A DNA stretch of 64,000 bases from an uncultured Candidatus Melainabacteria bacterium (GCA_949927415.1 CATLFB010000006.1:1-64000), one strand, 5' to 3'. Positions 5,173 to 57,473 are shown, counted from the stretch's first letter. Notes: generated from the sequence alone by a model not told the origin. Made by a program: numbers and translations.

Positions 5173-7347
5173 TTATTTTCCGCAAGAGCAGGCTACAGAG
5201 CCGCATCCGCAAGAACAGCCCAGAGCTTCTTTAGCTTCTTCCATTCTGACTTTGATACGTCCGTCTACTGCAATTCCTTCGCCTGTTGCTTCAGAAATTA
5301 ATAGCGGATTGATATCTAATTCGTCGATGAATTTGAAGTCAGAAACAAGCTGTGATAATCTCAACAGAGTTTCTTTGATTTGATCCATCTGAGCCGGTTT
5401 TGTGCCGCGTGCGCCTTCCAGAAGTTTGTATGCTTTAACTGATTTAATCATTTCTTCAGCATCAACGTCTGTCAAAGGAGCGATTCTGAAGGTTACGTCT
5501 TTCATAACTTCAACGAAAACACCGCCCAAGCCGAACATCATCATCGGACCGTATTGAGGATCAGTTGCAATACCGCAAACCATTTCACGGCTGCCTTTAA
5601 CCATTTCCTGAATGATTACGCCTTCCAGACCTTCAAGAAGTCCTTTTGCTTCAAGTCTTTCAAGCAAACCTTTGTATTCCTTTCTCAATTGTTCTTCTGA
5701 TTTGATGTTTACAACAACACCGCCAACGTCTGTTTTGTGTGAAGTTGTTTTTGAAGTCATTTTCATAACAACCGGGTAGCCGATTGAGTTGCCGAGTTCA
5801 ACAACTTCGTCTTCGTTTGTTGCAAGACCGTATTTGCAAGCGCGGATTCCGTATGCTTGAAGAACGTCGATTGATTCAAGAGTTGTAAGTTGTGCGCGGC
5901 CTTCTGCAAGTGAATTTTTGATAATGTTTTCAACTTTTGCTCTGTCAACGTCGAAGCAAGGCATTTTGCCTTCCGGTCTTTCCATCCATTTTCTCTGCTG
6001 GTTAAGTCTGTTAAAGCCGTCAGCTGCTTCTTCTGCGTACATGAAGAACGGCATATTAACGTTCAAATCAGATAAAGCTGTGAAGAATTCGCTCTTGGTC
6101 ATGAATACGCCGATAACCGGTTTTTCAGGATGCTGAGCTTTGATTTCCATAACGGCTTTTGCAACATCGATGTCTTTCAAGCCAAGGAACGGCAGATAAA
6201 TTACCATAATCATATCAACATTTTCATCAGCGATAACTGTTTCGAGTGTTTGTTTATAGTGTTCGATAGGTGCTGATGCAATCATGTCAATCGGGTTTTT
6301 AACAGATGCTGCAGAAGGTAAGAAGCTTCTTAATTTGTCTTTTGTAGCGTCTGTAATTTGCGCCATCTGCATGCCGTATTCGCAAACAGCATCAGTTGCC
6401 ATAATGCCGGGGCCGCCTGAGTTTGTGATGATTGCTACTCTGTCGCCTTTCGGAATCGGGCAGTTTGCAAAAACTTTTGCGGTTGAAAACAGGTTTTTCA
6501 AAGAGTATTCTCTGATAACACCTGATTGCTGAAGAAGTGCATTAGCGGCTTTATCCGCACCGGCGAGTGAGCCTGTGTGAGAGGATGCAGCTGATGCGCC
6601 TGCTGCTGAACGGCCTGCTTTAAGTGCAAGAATAGGTTTCTTTTTAGAAATTCTTGATGCTAATTGTCTGAAGTTTGCAGGGTTTTGGATTGATTCCATA
6701 TAAAGAAGGATTTGTTCAACGTCTTCTTCATTTTCCCAGTATTCAATAGCTGTTTCAGCGTTAACATCAGCCTGGTTGCCGATTGAGATGAACTGTGCAA
6801 AGCCAAGGTTAAGGTCTTTCAAAATGTTCAAAATACCGCCGCCCAAAGCGCCTGATTGAGAAACGAAACCGATGTTTCCGCGCTCAGGAAGAGATTCTGC
6901 GAAACATCCGTCCATACGGATATCAGGGTGAGTGTTAACGACACCCAGGCAGTTCGGACCGACACATCTCATGCCGTATTCGCGAACTTTTGCAAGCAAT
7001 GCTTTTTCAGCTTCAGCGCCTTCTTTGCCTGTTTCTTTGAAGCCGGCTGTAATTATGCACAAACCTTTGATGCCTTTTGCATGGCACTGGTCGATTGTAT
7101 CAAGTACGAATTTTGCGTTTACTACGATGATTGCAAGGTCAACTTCACCCGGGATTTCGCCCACTGATGTGTATGCTTGCAAACCTTCGATAATTCCGCC
7201 TTTCGGGTTTACCGGATAAATTTTTCCATTGAATTTGTATTCCTGTAATCTTTTCATGATGTCAGAACCGATTGTGTGTTCTTTTGTTGAAGCACCAACA
7301 ACCGCGATTGACTTTGGTTTCATGATTTTGTCTAAATTACTGCTCAT
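5173..7347 (-). CDS. Acyl-CoA synthetase, NDP-forming (acetate-CoA ligase, ADP-forming type)
   Basis: 724 aa, single-chain alpha-beta fusion. Domains in order: CoA-binding Rossmann fold (AVVGASTKEHTIGSDIM near the N-terminus), succinyl-CoA-ligase-like flavodoxin domains with SQSGALGGGIL and the SSHTGSLAGAD segment that carries the phospho-histidine in this family, then a C-terminal ATP-grasp domain (GYPVVMKMTSKT...VGGVVV). The reaction is acyl-CoA + ADP + Pi to acid + CoA + ATP, a way of making ATP from acetyl-CoA during fermentation. It begins MSSNLDK at 7347 with AGGACAG upstream. The C-terminus is odd: it ends with CSCGCGSVACSCGK, six cysteines in 14 residues, which may bind metal or be a targeting tail. 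Codon use is regular, suggesting good expression. Confidence 0.9.
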   Translation of the reverse strand: MSSNLDKIMKPKSIAVVGASTKEHTIGSDIMKRLQEYKFNGKIYPVNPKGGIIEGLQAYTSVGEIPGEVDLAIIVVNAKFVLDTIDQCHAKGIKGLCIITAGFKETGKEGAEAEKALLAKVREYGMRCVGPNCLGVVNTHPDIRMDGCFAESLPERGNIGFVSQSGALGGGILNILKDLNLGFAQFISIGNQADVNAETAIEYWENEEDVEQILLYMESIQNPANFRQLASRISKKKPILALKAGRSAAGASAASSHTGSLAGADKAANALLQQSGVIREYSLKNLFSTAKVFANCPIPKGDRVAIITNSGGPGIMATDAVCEYGMQMAQITDATKDKLRSFLPSAASVKNPIDMIASAPIEHYKQTLETVIADENVDMIMVIYLPFLGLKDIDVAKAVMEIKAQHPEKPVIGVFMTKSEFFTALSDLNVNMPFFMYAEEAADGFNRLNQQRKWMERPEGKMPCFDVDRAKVENIIKNSLAEGRAQLTTLESIDVLQAYGIRACKYGLATNEDEVVELGNSIGYPVVMKMTSKTTSHKTDVGGVVVNIKSEEQLRKEYKGLLERLEAKGLLEGLEGVIIQEMVKGSREMVCGIATDPQYGPMMMFGLGGVFVEVMKDVTFRIAPLTDVDAEEMIKSVKAYKLLEGARGTKPAQMDQIKETLLRLSQLVSDFKFIDELDINPLLISEATGEGIAVDGRIKVRMEEAKEALGCSCGCGSVACSCGK

Positions 7348-7430
7348 GTTCTGTCCTTTCTTTGCGCCTGCACCTTTCTGTACAGTCTTCTTATTTTAAC
7401 TACATTTTTTATTTAATAAGTTGTATTTTT

Positions 7431-7838
7431 CTAGTCTTCATCTGTCATTATTTCAAACAATTTTTTGCCTAATTTTTTGAAAAAGTTACTGCATTTTTCT
7501 TGTAAACTTGCGGGCTTCGGAAGTTTTTCGTAATCCTCTATAACGCCCTTTGCTGCGTATTTGTAGAAATCAGCGTTTTTATTGAATGTGATTTCTGTGA
7601 AATTGTTTTTGCCTTTATAATAATCTTCGCCTTTTTGAGCAATTATGCTGATTGTATCTTTTTTATGCTTTTGTTTTATAAACAAATCGAAATTTTTATC
7701 AGCAATCAATTCTTGTAATGTTTTTAAATTTGCTCTGACGTATTTCGTCGGTACTGCACTAAGGTCATTTACTATGCAAACCCGACCCTGAAAGGTTTGT
7801 GGATTATTATTTGTTGATGATATATTTTGTACTTGCAT
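7431..7838 (-). CDS. Small protein of the lineage NxxF leader family
   Basis: 135 aa, no recognised domain. It opens MQVQNISSTNNNPQTFQGRV, the short leader also present on other proteins here. Residues 30-110 are paralogous to the broken gene at 7924-8303: KTLQELIADKNFDLFI aligns with PKLRKMISKKPFDLII, and the C-terminal ADFYKYAAKGVIEDY with AELYIEAAKQVIHDY. The remainder is Lys-rich. A predicted amphipathic C-terminus (FKKLGKKLFEIM) is present. There is no signal peptide. Function unknown. The tandem copies suggest a small lineage-specific family. Confidence 0.55.
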   Translation of the reverse strand: MQVQNISSTNNNPQTFQGRVCIVNDLSAVPTKYVRANLKTLQELIADKNFDLFIKQKHKKDTISIIAQKGEDYYKGKNNFTEITFNKNADFYKYAAKGVIEDYEKLPKPASLQEKCSNFFKKLGKKLFEIMTDED

Positions 7839-7923
7839 TTTTTATCCTGTTTGTAAATTTATTTATGTAAGAGGCTTGCGCCTCCGTCTTTATTCTGTTT
7901 GCTTACTTCCTTGTGTGTGTGGC

Positions 7924-8303
7924 TTATTTGACAAAGCCGGTTAGTTTATCCAGCATTCTTTCAAATAAGTTGCCGGGCTTTATATACTGTTTTGTGTAAT
8001 CATGAATAACCTGTTTTGCCGCTTCAATATAAAGTTCTGCCGGATTTCCGCCCTGTTCGTGGCATAAGCCGTTACGTGTTTCAGGTTATTGGCATTGTGG
8101 TCTTCAACTTTTTCTGCGCTTATTTTTATGACATTTCCGCTAAATCTGTCCTCTTGTATTATCAAATCAAAAGGTTTTTTAGAAATCATTTTTCTTAATT
8201 TCGGAAGCGCTTTATCAACATTATTTGATGTTATATGGCTGAATTCACCAAGCTTTAAGGCGTTGCCTGTAAAATTTTGTTTTGAATTTGAGATAGCTTG
8301 CAT
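7924..8303 (-). pseudogene. Frameshifted paralogue of the 7431-7838 gene
   Basis: The open frame from the ATG at 8303 (MQAISNSKQNFTG) runs to a stop at 7980, giving 107 aa whose last 20 residues are foreign. In the next frame the sequence continues as GGNPAELYIEAAKQVIHDY and on to LTGFVK with a stop at 7924, matching the C-terminus of the neighbour. The frames would rejoin by adding one G to the GGG at 8051-8053 (C on the + strand). Either the gene is a recent pseudogene or the base was lost in sequencing. The leader and the first two-thirds are intact, so the truncated product might still be made. Confidence 0.75.
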
Positions 8304-8317
8304 CTATTTACTCCTTT

Positions 8318-8941
8318 TTAGTAACCGTTTACAATCCACTCTCTCACTCTTAATTTTGCGCCAAGGTTTTGCGCAATTTCTTCGCATTTTTTTATGTCAA
8401 GATGGCGCCCTTTGTAGCCTTCGACAATGCTTGCGACAACTGATATATTTTCATCTGAACATGCTTTGATGAATTTTTTCACTTCTTCATAAGCCTCATC
8501 AAACTTTGGCTGTGAAAGTTCGTCATACTCTTCCTTTGACGCTCCGTTAAGGCTTACGGAAAATTCGTCAACAAGTCCTTTGCATTCAGGAACTACATTC
8601 TTTTTGTATACGAAATTTGCATGTCCGTTTGTGTTTACGCGAATTTTTGTCTGCGGATATTTTTCTTTTATGTATCCGGCAACCTCTTTTAATACGTCAA
8701 ATTTAAGCATCGGTTCGCCATATCCGCAAAAAATAACTTCTTTGGATGGGGTTTTTGTATAAATGTTTTCGAATTGTTCGATAACATCAGCGGACGTAGA
8801 ATTTTCGTCATCCAGCCACAAAGTCTGACCGACAACATCATCTTTGTCTTTTCTTAAACAAAAAATGCAATCATTCGTACAGCGATTAGTTAAGTTAATA
8901 TAAATTTTTCCGTCTAAAGTGTAAACTAAAACGTTTGCCAT
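8318..8941 (-). CDS. Radical SAM protein (TatD-associated type)
   Basis: 207 aa. The cluster-binding motif is C-x3-C-x2-C (NRCTNDCIFCLRK, residues about 19-30). A GYGEPMLKFDVLKEV motif (the GGE-like SAM-binding strand) and NTNGHANF follow, all in the order found in radical SAM barrels. The length and the sequence style match the short TatD-linked radical SAM group, whose reaction is unknown. No TatD gene is adjacent here. A 4Fe-4S cluster and an anaerobic cytoplasm are expected. It is leftward, 15 bp upstream of the frameshifted gene and possibly cotranscribed with it. Confidence 0.82.
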   Translation of the reverse strand: MANVLVYTLDGKIYINLTNRCTNDCIFCLRKDKDDVVGQTLWLDDENSTSADVIEQFENIYTKTPSKEVIFCGYGEPMLKFDVLKEVAGYIKEKYPQTKIRVNTNGHANFVYKKNVVPECKGLVDEFSVSLNGASKEEYDELSQPKFDEAYEEVKKFIKACSDENISVVASIVEGYKGRHLDIKKCEEIAQNLGAKLRVREWIVNGY

Positions 8942-47970: not shown

Positions 47971-48047
<77 letters not shown>

Positions 48048-48055
48048 TTTGATAT

Positions 48056-48092: not shown

Positions 48093-48164
48093 AGTAAATA
48101 CAACACATTTTACTGCACAATAGAATAATTTGAATTAAAAACTTATAACAAAATTGTAATAAAC

Positions 48165-48417
48165 TGAGTAATTTGGTCGGGGCAGATGGTGTGATTTTTT
48201 CGGGTAATCGGCTCTGTGTACGAGTTTGAGGGGTAGGAAATAATCAAACCATGTGAACCAAAATTACTCACTTTACTCTTTTTCTACTCAGGGCAGATGG
48301 TGTGATTATTTTGGGCAAACCTGATTTTTGAATAATAGCCTGATTTTTCGGGGGGGGGGTTACTTAGGTCAAATGGTATGATTATTTTGGGCAAATGAGT
48401 AATTTGAGTAATTTGAT
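48165..48417. repeat. Array of repeated sites, probable left end of the Mu-like element
   Basis: Four copies of a 20-28 bp site with core CATGGT/GATGGTGTGATTATTTT occur at 48181-48200 (+), 48237-48256 (inverted), 48290-48318 (+) and 48367-48395 (+). The last two also share TTTTGGGCAAA. A second box, TGAGTAATTT, accompanies them at 48165, 48261 (inverted) and 48396. Clustered sites of mixed orientation next to the transposase are how MuA/TnsB-type transposases recognise element ends. The rest of the 440-bp gap between the tRNA and the GNAT gene is A/T-rich, with a G10 run at 48350-48359. Confidence 0.7.
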
Positions 48418-48494
48418 TTTTCATGAATAACCGTTTTGAAATTTATCCAAATTTGCCGGGATTTTTATTTTTCATTTTATGATAAAATATGACA

Positions 48495-48923
48495 ATGAAA
48501 AATTTAACATATAAAAAGTTCACTGGACTTAATGACGATATTATAAAAATTAGAATGTCTATTTTTGTTGAAGAACAAGGTTTCAATAATGAATTTGATG
48601 AGATTGATAAAACTTGTTCGCATATCGTTTTATATGATAATAATAATCCTATTGCGACTTGTCGTTATTTTTATGAAAACAATAACTATCATATTGGAAG
48701 AGTTGCTGTTTCAAAAGAATATCGCGGAAAACATTTAGGCAACGAAATTATGCAAATTGCCGAAGATGAAATTAAAAAAGAAGGTGGCAAAACTATCGAA
48801 GTTTCTGCACAAGTTAGAGTTTCAAGTTTTTATAAAAAACTCGGTTTTAATGAAGTCGGTAGTGTTTATTTAGATGAGTTTTGCGAACATATAAGAATGA
48901 TTAAAAATATAAATTTTGTTTGA
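48495..48923 (+). CDS. GNAT acetyltransferase, first gene of the element
   Basis: 142 aa from the ATG at 48495 (MKNLTYKKF); an ATG two codons earlier is also possible. GNAT motif A is intact: IGRVAVSKEYRGKHLGNEIMQIAEDEI, with the acetyl-CoA-binding R-x-x-G-x-G/A-like loop. The closing SSFYKKLGFNEVG strand is typical. It resembles the ElaA/YjcF-like small N-acetyltransferases. Base composition and codon use are more A/T-rich than the chromosome to the left and similar to the following transposition genes, so it is probably cargo or a regulator of the mobile element. Acceptor unknown. Confidence 0.8.
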   Translation: MKNLTYKKFTGLNDDIIKIRMSIFVEEQGFNNEFDEIDKTCSHIVLYDNNNPIATCRYFYENNNYHIGRVAVSKEYRGKHLGNEIMQIAEDEIKKEGGKTIEVSAQVRVSSFYKKLGFNEVGSVYLDEFCEHIRMIKNINFV

Positions 48924-48992
48924 TACGAAACCGACACAATGCTCGGAAGTGGTGTTCCAATCCTTTGTATTCAGAGGTAAAGTGTTCGTACC

Positions 48993-50990
48993 ATGAAAAA
49001 CGAATATGTTAACATTAAAAAAATCGCACAGGCAAAGGGTTTGAAAAGCACTCGTTCAATCCGAATGGAAATCAACAAGTCCGAAAGCAAATATATTTCA
49101 AGAGAGGTTAAGGTTAACGGTGGCACTTCTTATGAGATCCTGTTTTCAAGTTTAGAGCCTGAATTACAACAAAAACTTCGTGAGAACGAAACAAAATCAG
49201 CAGCACTTGTGCCTCTGAATTATCAGCCTCCAGTTATAACAGATAAAGCAAGAATAACAGCTAATCATCGAATGAATATTGTCAAAGCCGCTCTTGAACA
49301 TCGCAAAAAATATAATACTCAAAAACAAGCAGACCACGAATTTTTAGAGTTATACAACACAGGATTATTTTTACCAAAAGCATACGAATTTCTTGGAAGC
49401 ATTTCAATCGGAACATTAAGGCGATACATTCAAGCCTATTTAAAAAGCGGAAATGCAGAGAATTTAGTTCCTCAATACAAAATTACAAAGCAGGGTGAAT
49501 ATAACGGCATATTAAATAATGATATGAAAAAAGTTCTGCTCGCTCTTTTACTTCATCAAAATAAATTCGGTTACAATACAGCCATTCGCTTGGCTAAACA
49601 AATATTAATTAAGCAAGGATATGATGAGGAAAGTTTACCAAGTAATATTACATTCAAACGATTTGCAGAGCATTTTAGAGATAATAATTATGCCGAATGG
49701 ACTCTAAAACGTGAAGGAATAAAAGCCTACCACGATAAGGTTGAGCCGTATATTGAACGAGATATTTCTAAAATCGAAGTGGGCGATGTTTTAATCGCAG
49801 ACGGTCACGTTCTTAATTTCCAAGTAATAAATCCATTTACAGGTAAGCCAACGAGAGCGACACTCGTTGGCTTTTTAGATTGGAAATCAACAACCCTTGT
49901 CGGGTATGAAATTATGATGAGCGAAAACACTCAATGTATCGCCTCAGCTTTACGGAATGCAATTTTAAATCTTGGTTTGATTCCAAAGGTTGTGTACCAA
50001 GATAACGGAAAGGCTTTTAAATCAAAATATTTTCAACATTGTGATTTTGAGGAGGGGGAATTTAACGGAGTGTATGCCAATTTAGGTATTCACTCCGTTT
50101 TTGCTAAACCATACAATGCAAGAGCGAAAGTCATTGAGAGGTTTTTCTTAGAATTTCAAGAAGAATTTGAAAAATTAATGCCAAGCTACATTGGTACTTC
50201 AATTGAAAATCGTCCTGCTTGGATGAACAGAAATGAAAAACTCCACCTTCAAATTCACGAGAAACAAACTGGTGGAAAAATTCCAACGGTACAAGAAGTA
50301 ATTAAATACATTGATTGTTGGCTTGAATTTCACAATCAAAAACTTTGTCCTAATGACCGTTCAATAACTATTCAAGAGGTATTAAACTCTGTTCAAAGAC
50401 AAGATATCAATAAATCAGCTCTTGATTATCTAATGATGAAAACAGAGGGCAGAACGATAAATAAACATGGCATTACATTCTTAAATATGCATTACAGAAG
50501 CGATGCAATTCTCGGACTCAGAGATAAAATTTATATCCGATACAGTTTATTTGACCTTTCAAAAGTCTATGTCTACTCTGCTAAAGGCGAGCCTTTATGC
50601 GTTGCACACAGAGTGCAGAAAGTTCATCCAATGGCAAGGGTCTTAGGAACGGTGCAAGATATGGAAGAATACAATCAGCAATACAAAAAGCAACAACAAA
50701 TAAAAAGCCGGCTGATTAAAAAAGTTAAATCGTACTACAAATCCGAAGATATTCCACTCTTGGAAATCGAGCCGGAAGTAATTGATGAAATCGCTCCAAT
50801 TCTTGAAGAGAAACCGAAACGTGAAAAGAAGAAAACACCTCGTGAACAGCAGATGAACAGACCGATTTTTGCAAATGATGCCGAGAAATATGAATGGTTA
50901 ATTGCTCATGGCTGTACAAACCAAGAGGACAGAAAATTTCTAACTAAATTTATACAAAGCGAACAATACCAATTATTATATGGAGATTAA
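48993..50990 (+). CDS. DDE transposase 1 (MuA/TnsB-like)
   Basis: 665 aa. The N-terminal region (1-60) looks like the Mu-type winged HTH that binds internal or end sites, and a second helical DNA-binding region covers about 85-245. The RNase H-like integrase core has Asp270 (LIADGH), Asp337 (YQDNGKAF) and Glu382 (AKVIERFF), a complete DDE triad. A beta-barrel domain then follows (about 440-560) and a basic, Lys-rich C-terminal tail that in MuA contacts the ATPase partner. The next gene, its ATPase, starts 4 bp after this stop. This transposase is not a close paralogue of the second one at 52895. Confidence 0.9.
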   Translation: MKNEYVNIKKIAQAKGLKSTRSIRMEINKSESKYISREVKVNGGTSYEILFSSLEPELQQKLRENETKSAALVPLNYQPPVITDKARITANHRMNIVKAALEHRKKYNTQKQADHEFLELYNTGLFLPKAYEFLGSISIGTLRRYIQAYLKSGNAENLVPQYKITKQGEYNGILNNDMKKVLLALLLHQNKFGYNTAIRLAKQILIKQGYDEESLPSNITFKRFAEHFRDNNYAEWTLKREGIKAYHDKVEPYIERDISKIEVGDVLIADGHVLNFQVINPFTGKPTRATLVGFLDWKSTTLVGYEIMMSENTQCIASALRNAILNLGLIPKVVYQDNGKAFKSKYFQHCDFEEGEFNGVYANLGIHSVFAKPYNARAKVIERFFLEFQEEFEKLMPSYIGTSIENRPAWMNRNEKLHLQIHEKQTGGKIPTVQEVIKYIDCWLEFHNQKLCPNDRSITIQEVLNSVQRQDINKSALDYLMMKTEGRTINKHGITFLNMHYRSDAILGLRDKIYIRYSLFDLSKVYVYSAKGEPLCVAHRVQKVHPMARVLGTVQDMEEYNQQYKKQQQIKSRLIKKVKSYYKSEDIPLLEIEPEVIDEIAPILEEKPKREKKKTPREQQMNRPIFANDAEKYEWLIAHGCTNQEDRKFLTKFIQSEQYQLLYGD

Positions 50991-50993
50991 ACA

Positions 50994-51710
50994 ATGAAAA
51001 AGACATTTATTAAAACGAAAAATGTTAAACGGTTTATTACTTTAATGGATGAACTTCAAAAACTTCCACCCAACATTCCAAAATTAGCCCTTGTTTATGG
51101 TGAACATGGGCTTGGTAAATCACAGACAATTCAATGGTGGGCTAATAAGAACGATTCGATTTATGTAAGAGCAACTCAAGGAATGACAAGCAGATGGCTT
51201 TTATCTGAAATTGCAGAAGAAATTGGCGAAGATCCGTATTGGCATACTCAAGAAACATTCAGCTTAATTGAAAACCATTTAAGACAAAATCCTAAAGTAA
51301 TAATTGTTGACGAGATTGATTATTTAATAGAAAAACACACCGTTGAAACCTTGCGAGATTTACACGATAAAACAGGCTGCCCGATTGTTTTGGTTGGAAT
51401 GGGAGCGGCGGATAAAAAACTTGCAAGATATCCGCATTTAATGGATAGAGTTTACAGACAACTTAAATTTGAACAATTTAATCAGGAGGATATTTCAGAC
51501 ATTTTATGCCAATTAACGGATTTAAGTTTTACTGAAGATTCAATAAATTATCTTGCAACACGCACAAACCAATTCAGGCAATTAGTTAAATTGATAAATA
51601 AAATTGAAAAATTATCTCAAACAAACCAAATTGAAGAATTAGACGAATACACATTGAAAGGACTTTTAAATGAAAGAGCGAATATTAAGACTTTGCAAAA
51701 GGTTGGATAA
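50994..51710 (+). CDS. Transposition AAA+ ATPase 1 (TnsC/TniB/MuB-like)
   Basis: 238 aa. Walker A is GEHGLGKS (residues 36-43), Walker B is KVIIVDEIDYL (101-111), and a sensor region has PIVLVGMGAADKKL with an arginine-rich MDRVYRQLKF after it. It lacks the N-terminal helix-turn-helix that the second ATPase (54846) has. MuB-type ATPases assemble on DNA, choose the target and activate the transposase. The gene sits between transposase 1 and the winged-helix gene, whose start overlaps this gene's 3' end by 41 bp. Confidence 0.88.
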   Translation: MKKTFIKTKNVKRFITLMDELQKLPPNIPKLALVYGEHGLGKSQTIQWWANKNDSIYVRATQGMTSRWLLSEIAEEIGEDPYWHTQETFSLIENHLRQNPKVIIVDEIDYLIEKHTVETLRDLHDKTGCPIVLVGMGAADKKLARYPHLMDRVYRQLKFEQFNQEDISDILCQLTDLSFTEDSINYLATRTNQFRQLVKLINKIEKLSQTNQIEELDEYTLKGLLNERANIKTLQKVG

Positions 51711-52347
51711 ATTCTCATTAGATGAAATTGAAATGGTATCGGAACTTGAAAGCGAAGAATTAATGCCGATTTTATCCGAATTAAAACGTGAAAACAAACT
51801 GATTCAAAAGGGTAATTCCTATTTTTATAACAAAGTTTCTGCCACAAAGAGAACTTTTGGGAATTTGCCTCTATGTTTTCAGTTTCATTCAAAAGAGGAA
51901 ATTGACTACATTTTAAAAGGTTTTTGCTGCGATATTGAAGTTTTAAAAATGATTGATTTATTTGGACTTACAAAACACACCTTAGATAAATTTTATAACT
52001 GTTTTAGAATGACGATTTATGAAAAACAATTCAATGAATTGTTAGAACACTTTGAAAAAACACCAAAGATGCCGCAAGAGCGAGTTTATATGAATACAAA
52101 AGTTTATTTATATTTATATAACGGTAAATTGTTTGTATCTGAAAAATATCTTGTTTCAAAAGATGCAAGAAAACATCGAGAAGAAGAACGGCTTGAGATT
52201 AAAAATATTTATTTAAAAAGCTACAGAAAAGTTTTAAGTCGCTCGTTCGCTCATAAATTTCATCTGCACCTATCAGAAGAATTGTGGAAGTATGGCAAGG
52301 AGTTTAATGAACAATATGTTTTAATGAATAAAATGTTATTTTCTTAA
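51670..52347 (+). CDS. Winged-helix protein associated with transposition module 1
   Basis: 225 aa. It starts inside the ATPase gene with a 41-bp overlap. Residues 14-56 (FSLDEIEMVSELESEELMPI...LIQKGNSYFYN) form a winged helix. The rest has several aromatic, Lys-rich helices and a YLYLYNGKLFVSEKYLV hairpin that may be a second DNA-binding element. The final basic part (KSYRKVLSRSFAHKFHLHL) is also suited to DNA binding. It is not recognisable as TniQ/TnsD. Position after transposase and ATPase suggests a third transposition factor, perhaps for target choice or end pairing. Confidence 0.6.
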   Translation: MKERILRLCKRLDKFSLDEIEMVSELESEELMPILSELKRENKLIQKGNSYFYNKVSATKRTFGNLPLCFQFHSKEEIDYILKGFCCDIEVLKMIDLFGLTKHTLDKFYNCFRMTIYEKQFNELLEHFEKTPKMPQERVYMNTKVYLYLYNGKLFVSEKYLVSKDARKHREEERLEIKNIYLKSYRKVLSRSFAHKFHLHLSEELWKYGKEFNEQYVLMNKMLFS

Positions 52348-52682
52348 CATTTCTTAATATAAAACAGGACAATTTTTTCTCTTTATTATTGCGTTTCAAA
52401 TTTGATAATTTTTTATAATTCTAAATTAAAACCTTTTATATTATAGTTTTCGGAGTTTTTATATTTCTGTCCTATTCAGGACAGGCAAAGTTTTTCATCT
52501 CTTTTAATATTTAAATATTCAAATATAATTGATTTATAGTTTGATTGTGTTTCTGTATAGCCAAGCAGATAGCCCATTTGGGCTACTTCGTGGTGTGCAA
52601 AAAATAAGATAGTCAGCTAATAGTAAAAATTTAAAAAAAGATTACTGCTTGAATAGTACCCCGTTACTAATCAAGAGAGGAA
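52348..52682. other. 335-bp gap between the two transposition modules
   Basis: It holds no gene. It contains a palindrome CTGTCCTATTCAGGACAG (52467-52484), a matching half-site CAGGACA at 52365, a short hairpin TAGCCCA/TGGGCTA (52570-52585) and, just before the HTH gene, an 11-bp stem with one mismatch (CTTGA.TAGTA). These look like operator and leader structures. No copy of the left-end transposase site is found here, so I see no right end for module 1. Confidence 0.55.
52467..52484. promoter_or_regulatory. Perfect palindromic operator candidate
   Basis: CTGTCCT-ATTC-AGGACAG, a 7-bp perfect dyad with a 4-bp spacer, 208 bp upstream of the Ner-like gene. A third copy of the half-site lies about 100 bp upstream. 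This spacing and symmetry fit a dimeric phage repressor or the small HTH protein encoded next. Confidence 0.55.
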
Positions 52683-52691
52683 TTGATAAAA

Positions 52692-52901
52692 ATGAACAAC
52701 TGTGTTAACTGCCAAAAGAAAATTTTACTAAAATTTATTATGTCGTTTTACAACATAAAAGCAACCGACATAGCAAGAGAAATCAACGTTTCTGACAGTC
52801 TTGTCAGAAAGCATATCGATGGAATTCGTAATTGTGAACAAGTGGATTTATATATAATCCATGCTTGTTTCGGAGATAATTTTGGAGCGATTAAATGCTA
52901 A
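52692..52901 (+). CDS. Ner/Cro-like small HTH protein
   Basis: 69 aa from the ATG at 52692 (GAGAGG 11 nt upstream); a TTG at 52683 is an alternative. One helix-turn-helix: IKATDIAREINVSDSLVRKHIDGIR, then a short hydrophobic C-terminus. It occupies the place of the Ner protein in Mu-like phages, immediately before the transposase gene, where it would moderate early transcription. The 3' end overlaps transposase 2 by 7 bp, so the genes are coupled. Confidence 0.7.
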   Translation: MNNCVNCQKKILLKFIMSFYNIKATDIAREINVSDSLVRKHIDGIRNCEQVDLYIIHACFGDNFGAIKC

Positions 52902-54856
52902 AAACTACGCAAGAAAAATTAAATATTCCTGCGTGGATTTCTATTGAGGAGGCATCAAAACTCCTTAATGTAAAAGTAAAAACAGTTAAAAACCGTTGTT
53001 ATAAAGGCGATTTTAATTATAAAATCGAAATTAAAAACAATGTAAGACAATTATTTATTCGTTACTCATCTTTGCCTATTAAATTTAATTGTGATTCAGA
53101 AGTAGAAAATCAAAAATATTCAGATGCTCCTGTGTGGTCTAAAATTCAAGCTGATAAATATAGTAGTATTGTAAAAGAAAGCATTAAACTTAAAGGACAA
53201 AAATTACAAGAATTTATTGATTCTTGGAATATCGATCATCCAGATAATCAAACTTCATACTCTTCAATAATAAGAATGAGAAGACGATATCGTAATAAAG
53301 GATTAAACGGACTTTTAGCAAGATATGGGAACAATTTAGGAAGAACCGTCATTGATGATTATTACTTTGAGTATTTTAAAAATTTATATCTCGTTGAAGG
53401 TGCGCCTTCGCTACAAACTTGTTGGGATTTAACACTTGGTCACGCAGTAAGAGAGAATGGAATTGATAGATTAGAATTCCCGAGTTGCTCATCTTTCAAA
53501 CGCAGATTAAGACGTGATGTACCAAAACAAAGTATTTATTTAGCGAGATATGGGCAAACAGCATGGAATAGGAGATACGGGAACTACATTGAGAGAGATT
53601 ATTCAAACGTGGTCTGTGGCAAAGTTTGGGTTTCAGACCACGCACAAATCGACGTTGCTTGTCTGTCACCAGACGGCAATGTCGTTTTTCCTTGGGTTAC
53701 CGCTTGGAGAGATTACAAATCCGGTAAGTGGCTCGGTTGGCTTTTACAATGTGGTAATCCAAATTCCGACCATATCTTTCAAACTTTTTATTACGCAGCC
53801 GAAGAGTATGGACTTCCTGAAGATGTAATTATCGACAACGGTAAAGATTACCGTTGTAAAGATTTTGCCGGAGGCAGAACTAACAGAATTCATGTTGAAA
53901 CTAATCAGCCTAAAACAACAGCAATGCTTGCAGAATTGAATGTTGATGTGCATTTTGCTTTGCCATATAACGCACAGACAAAACCTATTGAACGAGATTT
54001 TCTAAAAATCAAGGAATTATTGTCTAAGCATTGTGTAGGTTATAGAGGCGGAAATGTGGTTGAAAGACCTGAAAAACTTGCTGCTGAAATCAAAGCTGGC
54101 AAAATTATGTCTTTTGATAGATTCAAAGCTGTATTTGATGATTTTATAGTTAATGTCTTGAATAAAAGACCATCTGAAGGTAAAAACCTCAAAGGTTTGT
54201 GTCCTGATGATTTATTTGAACAGGAATTTACAGAAAAAATTACAACATCTTCTGATGCTCTGAAATTGTTCTGTATGAGAACATCTAAAACTTATACAGT
54301 TGGCAGAAACGGCATTAAAGACAATTCTCTCGGCATTACATATTGGGCGGATTGGATGATTTCAAAAACAGGATTAAAAGTTTATCTTCGTCGGGATGTT
54401 CAAAATTACAAAGAGGCTTGGGCATTCAGAGCGGATAATGACGAGTTTGTAGGTAAGATAAAAGCAGTTAAAGCCGTTGCGGCACTTCACGCAGATAGTA
54501 TTTCAAAAGAAGAATTCAAAGAGGCAATGGCAATTAAAAAACGTAATTTAAAAATTGCTAAATCATACATTAAACAAACATTTGAAATCCCTATTGAAGA
54601 ACAATACGAAAATTACAAAGCCGCTTATGGCAGCGTTGAAAAGCAATTAAAGCCTAAAGTTTCAAAAATTGCCAACACCAATATGGATAAGGCTATCCGC
54701 AAGAATAAAGAAATGGAAGCGTTTGGCAGACAGGATTTGTCTATATTTTTAGATGAAAAACCTCAAAAAAAAGAAAAATTGTATCTTTTTGAGACTGATA
54801 AAATCCTCGAAGAAGAACGTAAAGCACAATTAAAAGGAGTTGCGTATGGATATTAG
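52895..54856 (+). CDS. DDE transposase 2 (MuA-like)
   Basis: 653 aa. The N-terminus (WISIEEASKLLNVKVKTVKNRCYKG) is an HTH of the Mu DNA-binding domain type. A second HTH-like region follows (about 85-210, with RMRRRYRNKGLNGLLARYG). The catalytic core has Asp248 (VWVSDHA), Asp314 (VIIDNGKDYR) and Glu366 (TKPIERDF). A beta-barrel and a basic, helical C-terminal domain for contact with the ATPase complete the protein. It is the transposase directly linked to the Mu-like GemA and Mor genes downstream, so it is probably the phage's own. Overlaps ATPase 2 by 17 bp at most. Confidence 0.9.
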   Translation: MLKTTQEKLNIPAWISIEEASKLLNVKVKTVKNRCYKGDFNYKIEIKNNVRQLFIRYSSLPIKFNCDSEVENQKYSDAPVWSKIQADKYSSIVKESIKLKGQKLQEFIDSWNIDHPDNQTSYSSIIRMRRRYRNKGLNGLLARYGNNLGRTVIDDYYFEYFKNLYLVEGAPSLQTCWDLTLGHAVRENGIDRLEFPSCSSFKRRLRRDVPKQSIYLARYGQTAWNRRYGNYIERDYSNVVCGKVWVSDHAQIDVACLSPDGNVVFPWVTAWRDYKSGKWLGWLLQCGNPNSDHIFQTFYYAAEEYGLPEDVIIDNGKDYRCKDFAGGRTNRIHVETNQPKTTAMLAELNVDVHFALPYNAQTKPIERDFLKIKELLSKHCVGYRGGNVVERPEKLAAEIKAGKIMSFDRFKAVFDDFIVNVLNKRPSEGKNLKGLCPDDLFEQEFTEKITTSSDALKLFCMRTSKTYTVGRNGIKDNSLGITYWADWMISKTGLKVYLRRDVQNYKEAWAFRADNDEFVGKIKAVKAVAALHADSISKEEFKEAMAIKKRNLKIAKSYIKQTFEIPIEEQYENYKAAYGSVEKQLKPKVSKIANTNMDKAIRKNKEMEAFGRQDLSIFLDEKPQKKEKLYLFETDKILEEERKAQLKGVAYGY

Positions 54857-55724
54857 AGCAGAACTTCGAGAATTAATGGAAATTAAAAATTTTAGTATGA
54901 CATACGTTTCAACTGCGACTGGACTTGCTAAATCTACAATTAGTATGTGGTTAAACGGAAATTATGCAGGCAAAAACGATAAAGTTACAGATGCAATAAA
55001 TAATTTTATTCAAAGAGAACAGGAACGCTCTGTTAATAACGATTTGCCTTTTGTAAATATCTCAATCGTGAAATATGTTTCTGAAATTGCACGACTTTGT
55101 CATACTCAGGGTAAAATTGGAGTTTGCGTAGGTCGTGCCGGACTCGGTAAAACCGTTGCAGTAAAAAGATATACAAAAGAATTCTTGGATTCAATTTTAA
55201 TTGAAAGTGATTCAGGTTATACCGCAAAATCATTATTAAAAGAAATACACAGACGACTTGGATTATCAAGTAAAGGCTCTGTTTATGATTTAATGGGCGA
55301 AGTTGTCCGTAAATTAAACCAATCAGGCAGACTTCTTATTATTGACGAAGCTGAAAACCTACCCTACAGAGCATTAGAAATTACTCGCAGAATCCACGAC
55401 AAAACGGGAGTTGGTGTACTTTTAATCGGAAGGGGCATATTACTTGAAAACCTCAAAGGTTATAACAATCAGTACGATCAACTATATTCAAGAGTGAAAT
55501 ACACAAAAATTATTGATGGCTTGCTTATTCAGGATGTAGTAAAAATTCTTGAAGCAATTGAGCAAGATCCAAAATTGGCTGAAACCTATCTTAAGTATTC
55601 AGATAGAAATACTCGAAGATTGGAACATCTAATTAGTCACAGCATCGGCGTTGCTAAATTCAATGGCAAGGCTGAGGTCGATGATGGTGTGATTCAAGAA
55701 ACTTCTAAGTTATTGATGGCGTGA
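54846..55724 (+). CDS. MuB-like transposition ATPase 2
   Basis: 292 aa from the ATG at 54846, which has AAGGAG 6 nt upstream. Residues 1-60 form a Cro-like HTH (MTYVSTATGLAKSTISMWLNG), as in MuB. Walker A is GRAGLGKT (about 94-101), Walker B is LLIIDEAENL, and ITRRIHDKTGVGVLLIGRG follows as sensor region. The C-terminal helical domain is also MuB-like. MuB binds DNA as a filament and delivers target DNA to the transposase, and gives target immunity. It follows transposase 2 directly. The HTH distinguishes it from ATPase 1. Confidence 0.9.
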   Translation: MDIRAELRELMEIKNFSMTYVSTATGLAKSTISMWLNGNYAGKNDKVTDAINNFIQREQERSVNNDLPFVNISIVKYVSEIARLCHTQGKIGVCVGRAGLGKTVAVKRYTKEFLDSILIESDSGYTAKSLLKEIHRRLGLSSKGSVYDLMGEVVRKLNQSGRLLIIDEAENLPYRALEITRRIHDKTGVGVLLIGRGILLENLKGYNNQYDQLYSRVKYTKIIDGLLIQDVVKILEAIEQDPKLAETYLKYSDRNTRRLEHLISHSIGVAKFNGKAEVDDGVIQETSKLLMA

Positions 55725-55739
55725 AAGAGAGGTTAAATC

Positions 55740-55913
55740 GTGATACATAAATTTGCCGGTAAGTTTTTATTCCGACCCGACTATACTGCATTTTATATAT
55801 TCTTAATCGCTCTTGCCATCTTTATCTTGGGAGTTCAAATCGGAATCAAACATGGTCGTGAATTGCAACTTGAAGATATGAGGATTAAATATGGCTACGA
55901 CTTCACAGATTAG
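55740..55913 (+). CDS. 57-aa membrane protein of the early phage operon
   Basis: It starts with GTG at 55740, with GAGAGG 9 nt upstream. The product has one hydrophobic span (YTAFYIFLIALAIFILGVQIG) flanked by basic ends. It overlaps the GemA-family gene by 23 bp in a different frame. Small membrane proteins at this place are frequent in Mu-like phages but vary in sequence. No function assigned. Confidence 0.6.
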   Translation: MIHKFAGKFLFRPDYTAFYIFLIALAIFILGVQIGIKHGRELQLEDMRIKYGYDFTD

Positions 55914-56373
55914 AAAAATCCACACATTAAAAAATATTATTGGATTAGATGATGATTTATATCGTGAAATGCTGATGTCTTTTGATGTACAAAGTTCTAA
56001 AGATTTAACTTATACAGAAGCAGTTATCTTCACAGAAATTTTAGAAGAAAAAGCCGTTGCTCTCAATCGTTGGCAAAAGCAGCCAAAGAAATATGAAGGC
56101 TTATATCGTGGCGAAAAAATGGCAAGCGATGCCCAACTTCGAATGATTGAAGGGATGTGGCGAGAAGTTTGTTACTTTGATAATGACTCATTCGCAAAAA
56201 AATCTCTCAGAAAATTTCTGAACTCTAAGTTCAAAGTAGATGATGTTATGTTCCTAACTAAAGCCAAAGCCTGCAAAGTTATTCAGGCATTACAGGCTAT
56301 AAAAAAGAATTTAAATAAGAAAAAAGTGCGGCCACACTTGATTAGTAGAAGAAAAATAAGGAGAAAAACATGA
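55891..56373 (+). CDS. GemA/Gp16-family phage regulatory protein
   Basis: 160 aa. Matches the Mu Gp16/GemA (DUF1018) style: ATTSQIRKIHTLKNIIGLDDD at the start, YREMLMSFDVQSSKDLTYTEA, then MASDAQLRMIEGMWREVCYF and a C-terminal repeat of the same DUF fold (KFKVDDVMFLTKAKACKVI). In Mu, GemA modulates host gene expression and DNA relaxation, and it lies just before mor, as a Mor-type gene does a little further on here. The C-terminus is basic. Confidence 0.85.
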   Translation: MATTSQIRKIHTLKNIIGLDDDLYREMLMSFDVQSSKDLTYTEAVIFTEILEEKAVALNRWQKQPKKYEGLYRGEKMASDAQLRMIEGMWREVCYFDNDSFAKKSLRKFLNSKFKVDDVMFLTKAKACKVIQALQAIKKNLNKKKVRPHLISRRKIRRKT

Positions 56374-57133: not shown

Positions 57134-57155
57134 ATAAATAAGTATGAGGAGATTA

Positions 57156-57473
57156 ATGGATTTCAAACCATGGATGGAAAATATAACAATTGAGGACATG
57201 CCAAACGATGATTTAAAGTTTGTGGCACAATGTGCCGGCATTAAGGCTGCCTTGACGTTGATTTTCTGTCTGCCGGGATTGATTCTAAATATACCTAAAA
57301 ACGCTCTTAAAAGGCTCAAAGAACGTTATATTTTAAAAGAATATGACGGTACAAAAATGACATTAAACAGGCTTGTCGTTGAATGTGATCTATCTCAAAG
57401 ACAGGTCGAGGCATTAATCAGAAAACAATTAAAAAAATCTAAAAAACCTCCTGCTGATTCTATAAATAAGTAA
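57156..57473 (+). CDS. Mor-family transcription activator
   Basis: 105 aa from the ATG at 57156, which has AGGAG 5 nt upstream; the ATG at 57144 lacks one. It follows the Mor pattern: DDLKFVAQCAGIKAALTLIF (dimerisation helices), LILNIPKNALKRLKERYILK (the conserved strand and linker), then a HTH, LNRLVVECDLSQRQVEALI. In Mu, Mor activates the middle promoter as a dimer and is encoded after gemA, as here. It is the last rightward gene, ahead of two terminators, and is the natural candidate to switch on leftward promoters with paired dyads (58085, 59329). Confidence 0.8.
   Translation: MDFKPWMENITIEDMPNDDLKFVAQCAGIKAALTLIFCLPGLILNIPKNALKRLKERYILKEYDGTKMTLNRLVVECDLSQRQVEALIRKQLKKSKKPPADSINK

Follow-up and report, generated by a model that had tools for sequence, protein, structure and literature searches.

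The window analysed in this study is a stretch of 64,000 nucleotides (GCA_949927415.1 CATLFB010000006.1:1-64000) from an uncultured Candidatus Melainabacteria bacterium, and it lies on contig C6 (124.7 kb) of the 2.18-Mb genome G000. The host is a gut bacterium, Candidatus Gastranaerophilales. Two complete, different transposition modules lie in tandem in the window, as an earlier note on this DNA had described, and all of their parts are present where that note had placed them. Both modules belong to one 52.4-kb temperate myophage, whose ends on the chromosome are of the module 1 type and which is inserted behind a tRNA gene. The genes of the modules and the phage genes next to them are as follows, with positions in the window.

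48,489-48,923, + strand: GNAT-family acetyltransferase, cargo between the left end and T1 (Pfam PF13673, 5e-17)
48,993-50,990, + strand: T1, DDE transposase of 665 aa with rve and Mu-transpos_C domains
50,994-51,710, + strand: A1, AAA+ regulator, TniB/TnsC-like (PF05621 TniB, 6e-10; AAA_22, 1e-18), with no helix-turn-helix (HTH)
51,670-52,347, + strand: W, third gene of module 1, with a winged helix and a C-terminal region; its frame overlaps A1
52,348-52,682, + strand: intergenic control region with the palindrome CTGTCCTATTCAGGACAG at about 52,470-52,487
52,683-52,901, + strand: H, Ner-like HTH protein that opens module 2
52,895-54,856, + strand: T2, Mu-type DDE transposase (Mu DDE_2, Mu I-gamma, Mu-transpos_C)
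54,840-55,724, + strand: A2, MuB-like ATPase (AAA_22 plus an N-terminal HTH_3)
55,891-56,373, + strand: GemA (PF06252, 3.4e-17)
57,144-57,473, + strand: Mor-like late/middle transcription activator (phrog_836, 2.4e-10)

The full DDE triads that had been reported in both transposases are present and invariant, D270/D337/E382 in 75 aligned homologues of T1 and D248/D314/E366 in 20 of T2 (residues assigned by motif). The best solved relative of T2 is MuA (1.3e-10), and that of T1, by sequence, is TnsB of ShCAST, a type V-K CRISPR-associated transposon (CAST) (E 2.5e-4). Both proteins fall in the broad phage transposase family phrog_310; their identity, only ~28% over ~385 aa, is too low for recent duplicates, in agreement with the earlier view, and an N-terminal HTH is likewise confined to the second ATPase. 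TnsA was not found and no extra gene lies between T1 and A1, no search aimed at TnsA having been made. The overlapping frame of W suggests that T1, A1, and W may be made together. In an AlphaFold model of W, the winged helix occupies residues 1-61, and fold matches cover these residues only. W is not recognisable as TniQ, since neither profiles nor folds gave a TniQ match and it showed a generic winged helix only; PF06527 (TniQ) had no match in nine whole genomes, but the control genomes were equally silent. The virion and packaging genes, recognised by PHROGs, include those for portal, capsid, protease, terminase, sheath, tape measure, and baseplate.

The whole prophage was mapped to contig positions 48,155-100,511 (52,357 bp), with termini 5'-TGTA...TACA-3'. 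Its end features are the following.

47,971-48,047, + strand: tRNA-Met(CAT) (ARAGORN); the element is inserted behind this gene, on the same strand
48,150-48,154: left copy of the target-site duplication AAAAT; right copy at contig 100,512-100,516 (L063:16512-16516)
48,155-48,182: left terminus, 5'-TGTAATAAACTGAG...; TGTA termini are also kept in relatives
48,183-48,207, + strand: end site L1, CAGATGGTGTGATTTTTTCGGGTAA (position weight matrix, 33.9 bits)
48,231-48,255, - strand: end site L2, inverted, CACATGGTTTGATTATTTCCTACCC
48,294-48,318, + strand: end site L3, CAGATGGTGTGATTATTTTGGGCAA
48,370-48,394, + strand: end site L4, CAAATGGTATGATTATTTTGGGCAA
contig 100,455-100,501: right-end sites R2/R1, in inverted orientation, outside the window
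contig 100,511: right terminus, 5'-TGTAAAGAGT (other strand), outside the window

Beyond the outermost end sites the sequence reads 5'-TGTAATAAAC on the left (48,155) and 5'-TGTAAAGAGT on the right (100,511), and AAAAT flanks both. The left terminus lies 107 bp past tRNA-Met. Module 1 is at the left edge of the phage, as had been proposed, with the true edge at 48,155, slightly upstream of the start then given; the right end had not been visible in the window and is found outside it. The repeat array beside module 1 is real as well, and consists of four ~25-bp transposase-type sites, L1(+), L2(-), L3(+), and L4(+), and relatives keep the same spacing between them. For the R2/R1 pair, the rest of the contig was scanned with a matrix that included the left sites, and one further pair matched.

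A prophage in G127, a genome from a different family, with a 72% identical T1, has the same layout at 53.1 kb; the terminal 73 bp of its right end are 88% identical to those of the G000 phage, and the DNA just inside is unrelated. Smaller elements have the same termini. In all, 5-bp duplications were found in seven elements: AAAAT in the G000 phage, TTGAG in the G127 prophage, AACAG in G127-b, CCAGC in G084, TTTAA in G022, TCACT in G007-C2, and GCTAT in G079-C1. The last of these has a T1 of 39% identity, no T2, and TGTAA termini, and lies 132 bp behind tRNA-Asn. The left end of the G064 element was excluded from the termini, its last 28 bp being replaced by T1-upstream DNA of another element. 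The outer termini go with module 1, since elements that lack T2 have termini and duplications like these. T1 itself probably binds the L and R sites.

These ends bear on the three readings of module 1 that the earlier note had left side by side. A transposon nested inside the prophage is ruled out, since the module 1 end sites, with the 5-bp duplication, enclose all 52 kb of the phage. An independent transposon is correct for the lineage, because module 1 alone does occur in related genomes, in T2-free elements with mapped, clean ends and duplications (G007 C2, G079 C1); it is not correct for the present copy. Similarly, module 2 may be called the phage's own in origin, as there are Mu-like phages with module 2 alone, but the chromosomal ends are those of module 1. 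Of the three, a second system serving a different step has the best support, since purifying selection keeps the two modules together across families and module 1 is tied to oriented insertion adjacent to tRNA genes.

Among loci with a T1 at least 60% identical, a same-strand tRNA gene lies upstream of T1 within 1 kb in 21/26 and within 3 kb in 23/26; random positions in the same DNA are near a tRNA gene in 2.7% of cases, a figure itself inflated by sampling. A second set came from a different scan, with genomes that partly overlap those of the first and with copies having identical flanks removed. Here 34 of 54 loci have a tRNA gene on their own strand at no more than 1 kb and 41 at no more than 3 kb, and none has one on the opposite strand (binomial tests). 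Counted by strand within 3 kb, the two sets yielded 43 vs 0 and 41 vs 0. The left terminus, where it could be placed, follows the 3' end of the tRNA gene by 39-137 bp in 32 of 38 cases. In several loci (G127, L272, and L274) the tRNA gene is far from T1 since cargo intervenes, and the terminus itself is beside it; at L304 a tRNA-like 3' end is present that was overlooked by the tRNA finder. The isotypes used are Met, Ser, Phe, Arg, Asn, Asp, Ala, and Gln, and they vary even among elements whose T1 is more than 80% identical (Ser in G109, Asn in G001, Met in G007). More distant T1 lineages show a weaker trend of the same orientation (18/52 same strand within 3 kb, 0 opposite), and one large group of these has no tRNA gene in the flanking DNA covered. 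A second, decayed copy of T1-A1-W with broken frames is present in the same genome as the phage (L215, G000:C3:100000-114000, ~5,298-8,630), 339 bp behind tRNA-Asn.

The gene order T1-A1-W-H-T2-A2-GemA recurs in more than ten prophages, in three families, and in four IMG/VR contigs. These contigs were retrieved by T2 peptide patterns; a search of IMG/VR by T1 peptide patterns found no close T1 relatives. The distance from the start of T1 to that of T2 in such dual phages is mostly ~3.7-4.0 kb. Another family is represented by G128, where T1 (49%) and T2 (54%) also form a tandem and the third gene is a different one, with a product that matches the N-terminal region of T2. The ratio of nonsynonymous to synonymous substitution rates (dN/dS), from codon comparison, is 0.05-0.19 in the two transposases and 0.01-0.13 in the two ATPases, which indicates that neither machine has fallen out of use. 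Constraint is seen in W too, yet G064 and G109, whose phages are otherwise close, have versions of it that are ~33% identical, one having been exchanged for the other.

Each module also occurs without the other. Module 2 is found in Mu-like phages with Ner, A2, and GemA, often with a divergent repressor-like gene before T2, and in dual phages the T1-A1-W operon takes the place of this gene. Module 1 is found without T2 in elements of 13-15 kb. In the T1 tree, the small elements with both T1 and T2 form a clade of their own and copies with T1 only are mixed with the dual phages, so that T2 must have been gained or lost repeatedly. In distant module 1 elements (L216-L221, L177, and others), the gene after A1 encodes a protein of 245-570 aa that matches only residues ~66-220 of T2, its DNA-binding part; this protein may have arisen from a T2-like transposase and may select targets or act as a regulator.

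Four elements of 14.5-21 kb with module 1 ends were located, in G127 C1 (~373.8-394.8 kb), G084 C1 (~81.8-96.2 kb), G022 C2 (~109.5-128.3 kb), and G007 C2 (~220.9-236.3 kb). Their cargo comprises restriction/methylase, transporter, and other genes, and virion genes were not recognised among their open reading frames. In all four, the gene after the transposition genes is a homologue (E 1e-14 to 1e-18) of a protein from the packaging region of the G000 phage, encoded beside the large terminase gene and labelled by PHROGs as a DNA-binding protein. Its position suggests that it is the small terminase subunit. The small elements may be satellites of dual phages, as the shared gene hints.

A proposed scheme for the dual phages can be described as follows. 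T1, being TnsB-like, would bind L1-L4 and R1-R2 at the phage ends. Together with A1, and probably with W or features of host tRNA genes, it would insert the phage, always in the same direction, at a distance of about 40-140 bp behind a tRNA gene, with many isotypes accepted as targets, and would duplicate 5 bp in doing so; target choice may be supplied by W or A1. This Tn7-like 'safe-site' integration would found lysogens. T2 (MuA-like) and A2 (MuB-like), regulated by the Ner-like protein, would be the lytic machinery, copying the phage genome through Mu-type transposition and perhaps acting on the same outer ends as T1. Such a division of labour, with T1-A1 for tRNA-directed oriented integration in lysogeny and T2-A2 for Mu-type lytic replication, appears moderately probable. 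More tentatively, there may be a class of phages in which a Tn7-like machine recognises tRNA genes of whatever isotype for lysogeny and a Mu-like machine amplifies, with the small elements as satellites; this broader view is possible, and it is held with some reserve.

Several observations weigh against this division of labour. The module 1 element of L252 has a left terminus with no tRNA gene in the ~9 kb examined upstream. A T2-only phage (43% T2 identity; G118, G138) starts a few hundred bp behind tRNA-Met, and the association with tRNA genes may not be exclusive to module 1. Some small elements have T2 but no A2, and no resemblance of W to TniQ could be recognised. Finally, T2-specific end sites were not found, and the L and R sites are the same in T2-free elements. 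Since the T2-only phage lies behind tRNA-Met in two species, the proposal that targeting is due to module 1 alone has to be tempered. The two copies of this Mu-like phage (L210/L211) are 99.9% identical over 8.7 kb and adjoin the same tRNA-Met, and a search for the phage in IMG/VR returned none. Duplications and inverted termini of T2-only phages gave chance-level candidates only and no complete pair of ends.

Alternatively, T1-A1 may carry out both the integration and the lytic replication, with T2 (and A2) as an accessory, be it a heteromeric end-binding subunit, a regulator, or a competitor. Such a role would fit the detection of T1-type ends only, the retention of T2 without A2 in 14.5-21-kb elements having T1-A1-W, and the match of the post-A1 gene in distant elements to the N-terminal DNA-binding region of T2 alone. 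It is nevertheless considered unlikely, as the catalytic triad of T2 is invariant, dN/dS is low for both T2 and A2, and T2-A2-GemA by itself is the complete Mu-like core of other phages. A composite origin, in which a Mu-like phage long ago inserted into a tRNA-targeting module 1 transposon, so that T2 would still act at internal ends of its own and the composite would be moved by module 1, seems more doubtful still. The two modules do exist separately, the DNA from the phage core to the right T1 end holds cargo genes, and the T2-only phage of G062 has its left boundary, determined from two copies (C92, C153), just upstream of Ner, where W ends in dual phages. However, an inverted-motif test of the W-H gap against the right part of dual phages found nothing beyond chance relative to shuffles, whereas the same test recovers the T1 ends in both prophages whose right end is covered; near-constant spacing and co-conservation over three families also argue for a fixed unit.

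The proximity to tRNA genes might itself reflect survival at safe intergenic sites, with no targeting and with module 1 as an ordinary second transposase. Many elements are tolerated at sites behind tRNA genes, the spacing of 39-137 bp is less fixed than that of Tn7, and the insertion of L252 is away from any tRNA gene, all of which would fit such a bias. The strand counts of 43 vs 0 and 41 vs 0 speak against it, though, since reverse insertion would be equally harmless, and the same pattern over many isotypes and in small T2-free elements makes it very improbable.

Mu-type phages use a single transposase for lysogeny and replication and choose near-random targets, and to our knowledge the known transposable phages carry one transposase. 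The present element resembles Mu, BalMu-1, and their relatives in its MuA-like T2, MuB-like A2, Ner, GemA, Mor, Mu-like virion genes, and 5-bp duplication; it differs in that a second complete module frames the genome. Judged by gene content the whole element is a transposable phage, yet near-random target choice was not observed, as the dual prophages sit behind tRNA genes. None of the phage records searched matches T1 or T2 at more than one place, and the literature consulted, without subscription papers and most preprints, gave no precedent for two-module phages or for Tn7-like ends framing a phage.

With its TGT/ACA termini, its 5-bp duplications, its pair of TnsB-related DDE transposase and TnsC/TniB-type AAA+ protein, its end-site arrays that differ between left and right, and its oriented insertion just downstream of tRNA genes as att genes, module 1 appears to work like a Tn7-like system. 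The differences are that TniQ was not found and the third gene is W, that closely related elements use many tRNA isotypes, and that a complete Mu-like phage, which brings a second transposase, is carried as cargo. Homing behind tRNA genes is known in Tn7-like CAST relatives, including type I-D and I-B2, and CyCAST inserts 30-33 nt downstream of a tRNA gene (PMC10293859, PMC11406308). Most att sites of type V-K CAST, the group to which the nearest solved relative of T1 belongs, adjoin tRNA genes (PMC11406308). No evidence for use of CRISPR or Cas12k was met, no systematic search having been made.

The dual phage can be pictured as a Mu-type 'jump anywhere' phage having acquired a Tn7-type 'safe address' system. 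As such it would connect Tn7-like transposons with transposable phages and provide a natural experiment for studying how the choice of target can be uncoupled from the mode of replication. It may also offer a compact, CRISPR-free system for placing ~15-50 kb of DNA into safe sites behind many different tRNA genes.

Palindromes are present 104-138 bp after W at a near-constant position, and their sequences differ between phages (CTGTCCTATTCAGGACAG, CGGGGAATATTCCCCG, and AAGGTCAAATATTTGACCTT). Such a palindrome looks like an immunity-type operator. Resemblance between palindromes goes with resemblance between the Ner-like proteins more than between the W proteins. The idea that W is a repressor reading the palindrome was dropped, as the phages of G108 and G127 share nearly the same W N-terminus and their palindromes differ.

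The GNAT cargo gene at the left end is missing in several relatives, which have ~340 bp from the end to T1. Contig C6 holds large restriction-modification and helicase-type genes at 88,476-97,126 (L063), in the stretch that leads from the phage core to the right end; the part at 88.5-94.4 kb is common to the G127 phage and the rest is not. A 49-bp repeat of the 3' part of tRNA-Met is found at 48,002-48,050 in the window and at 113,729-113,777 of contig C6, and a tyrosine integrase is encoded at contig 107,890-109,077 (L064:3890-5077). These belong to a separate integrase-type island at the same tRNA-Met, and the phage sits inside the left edge of that island.

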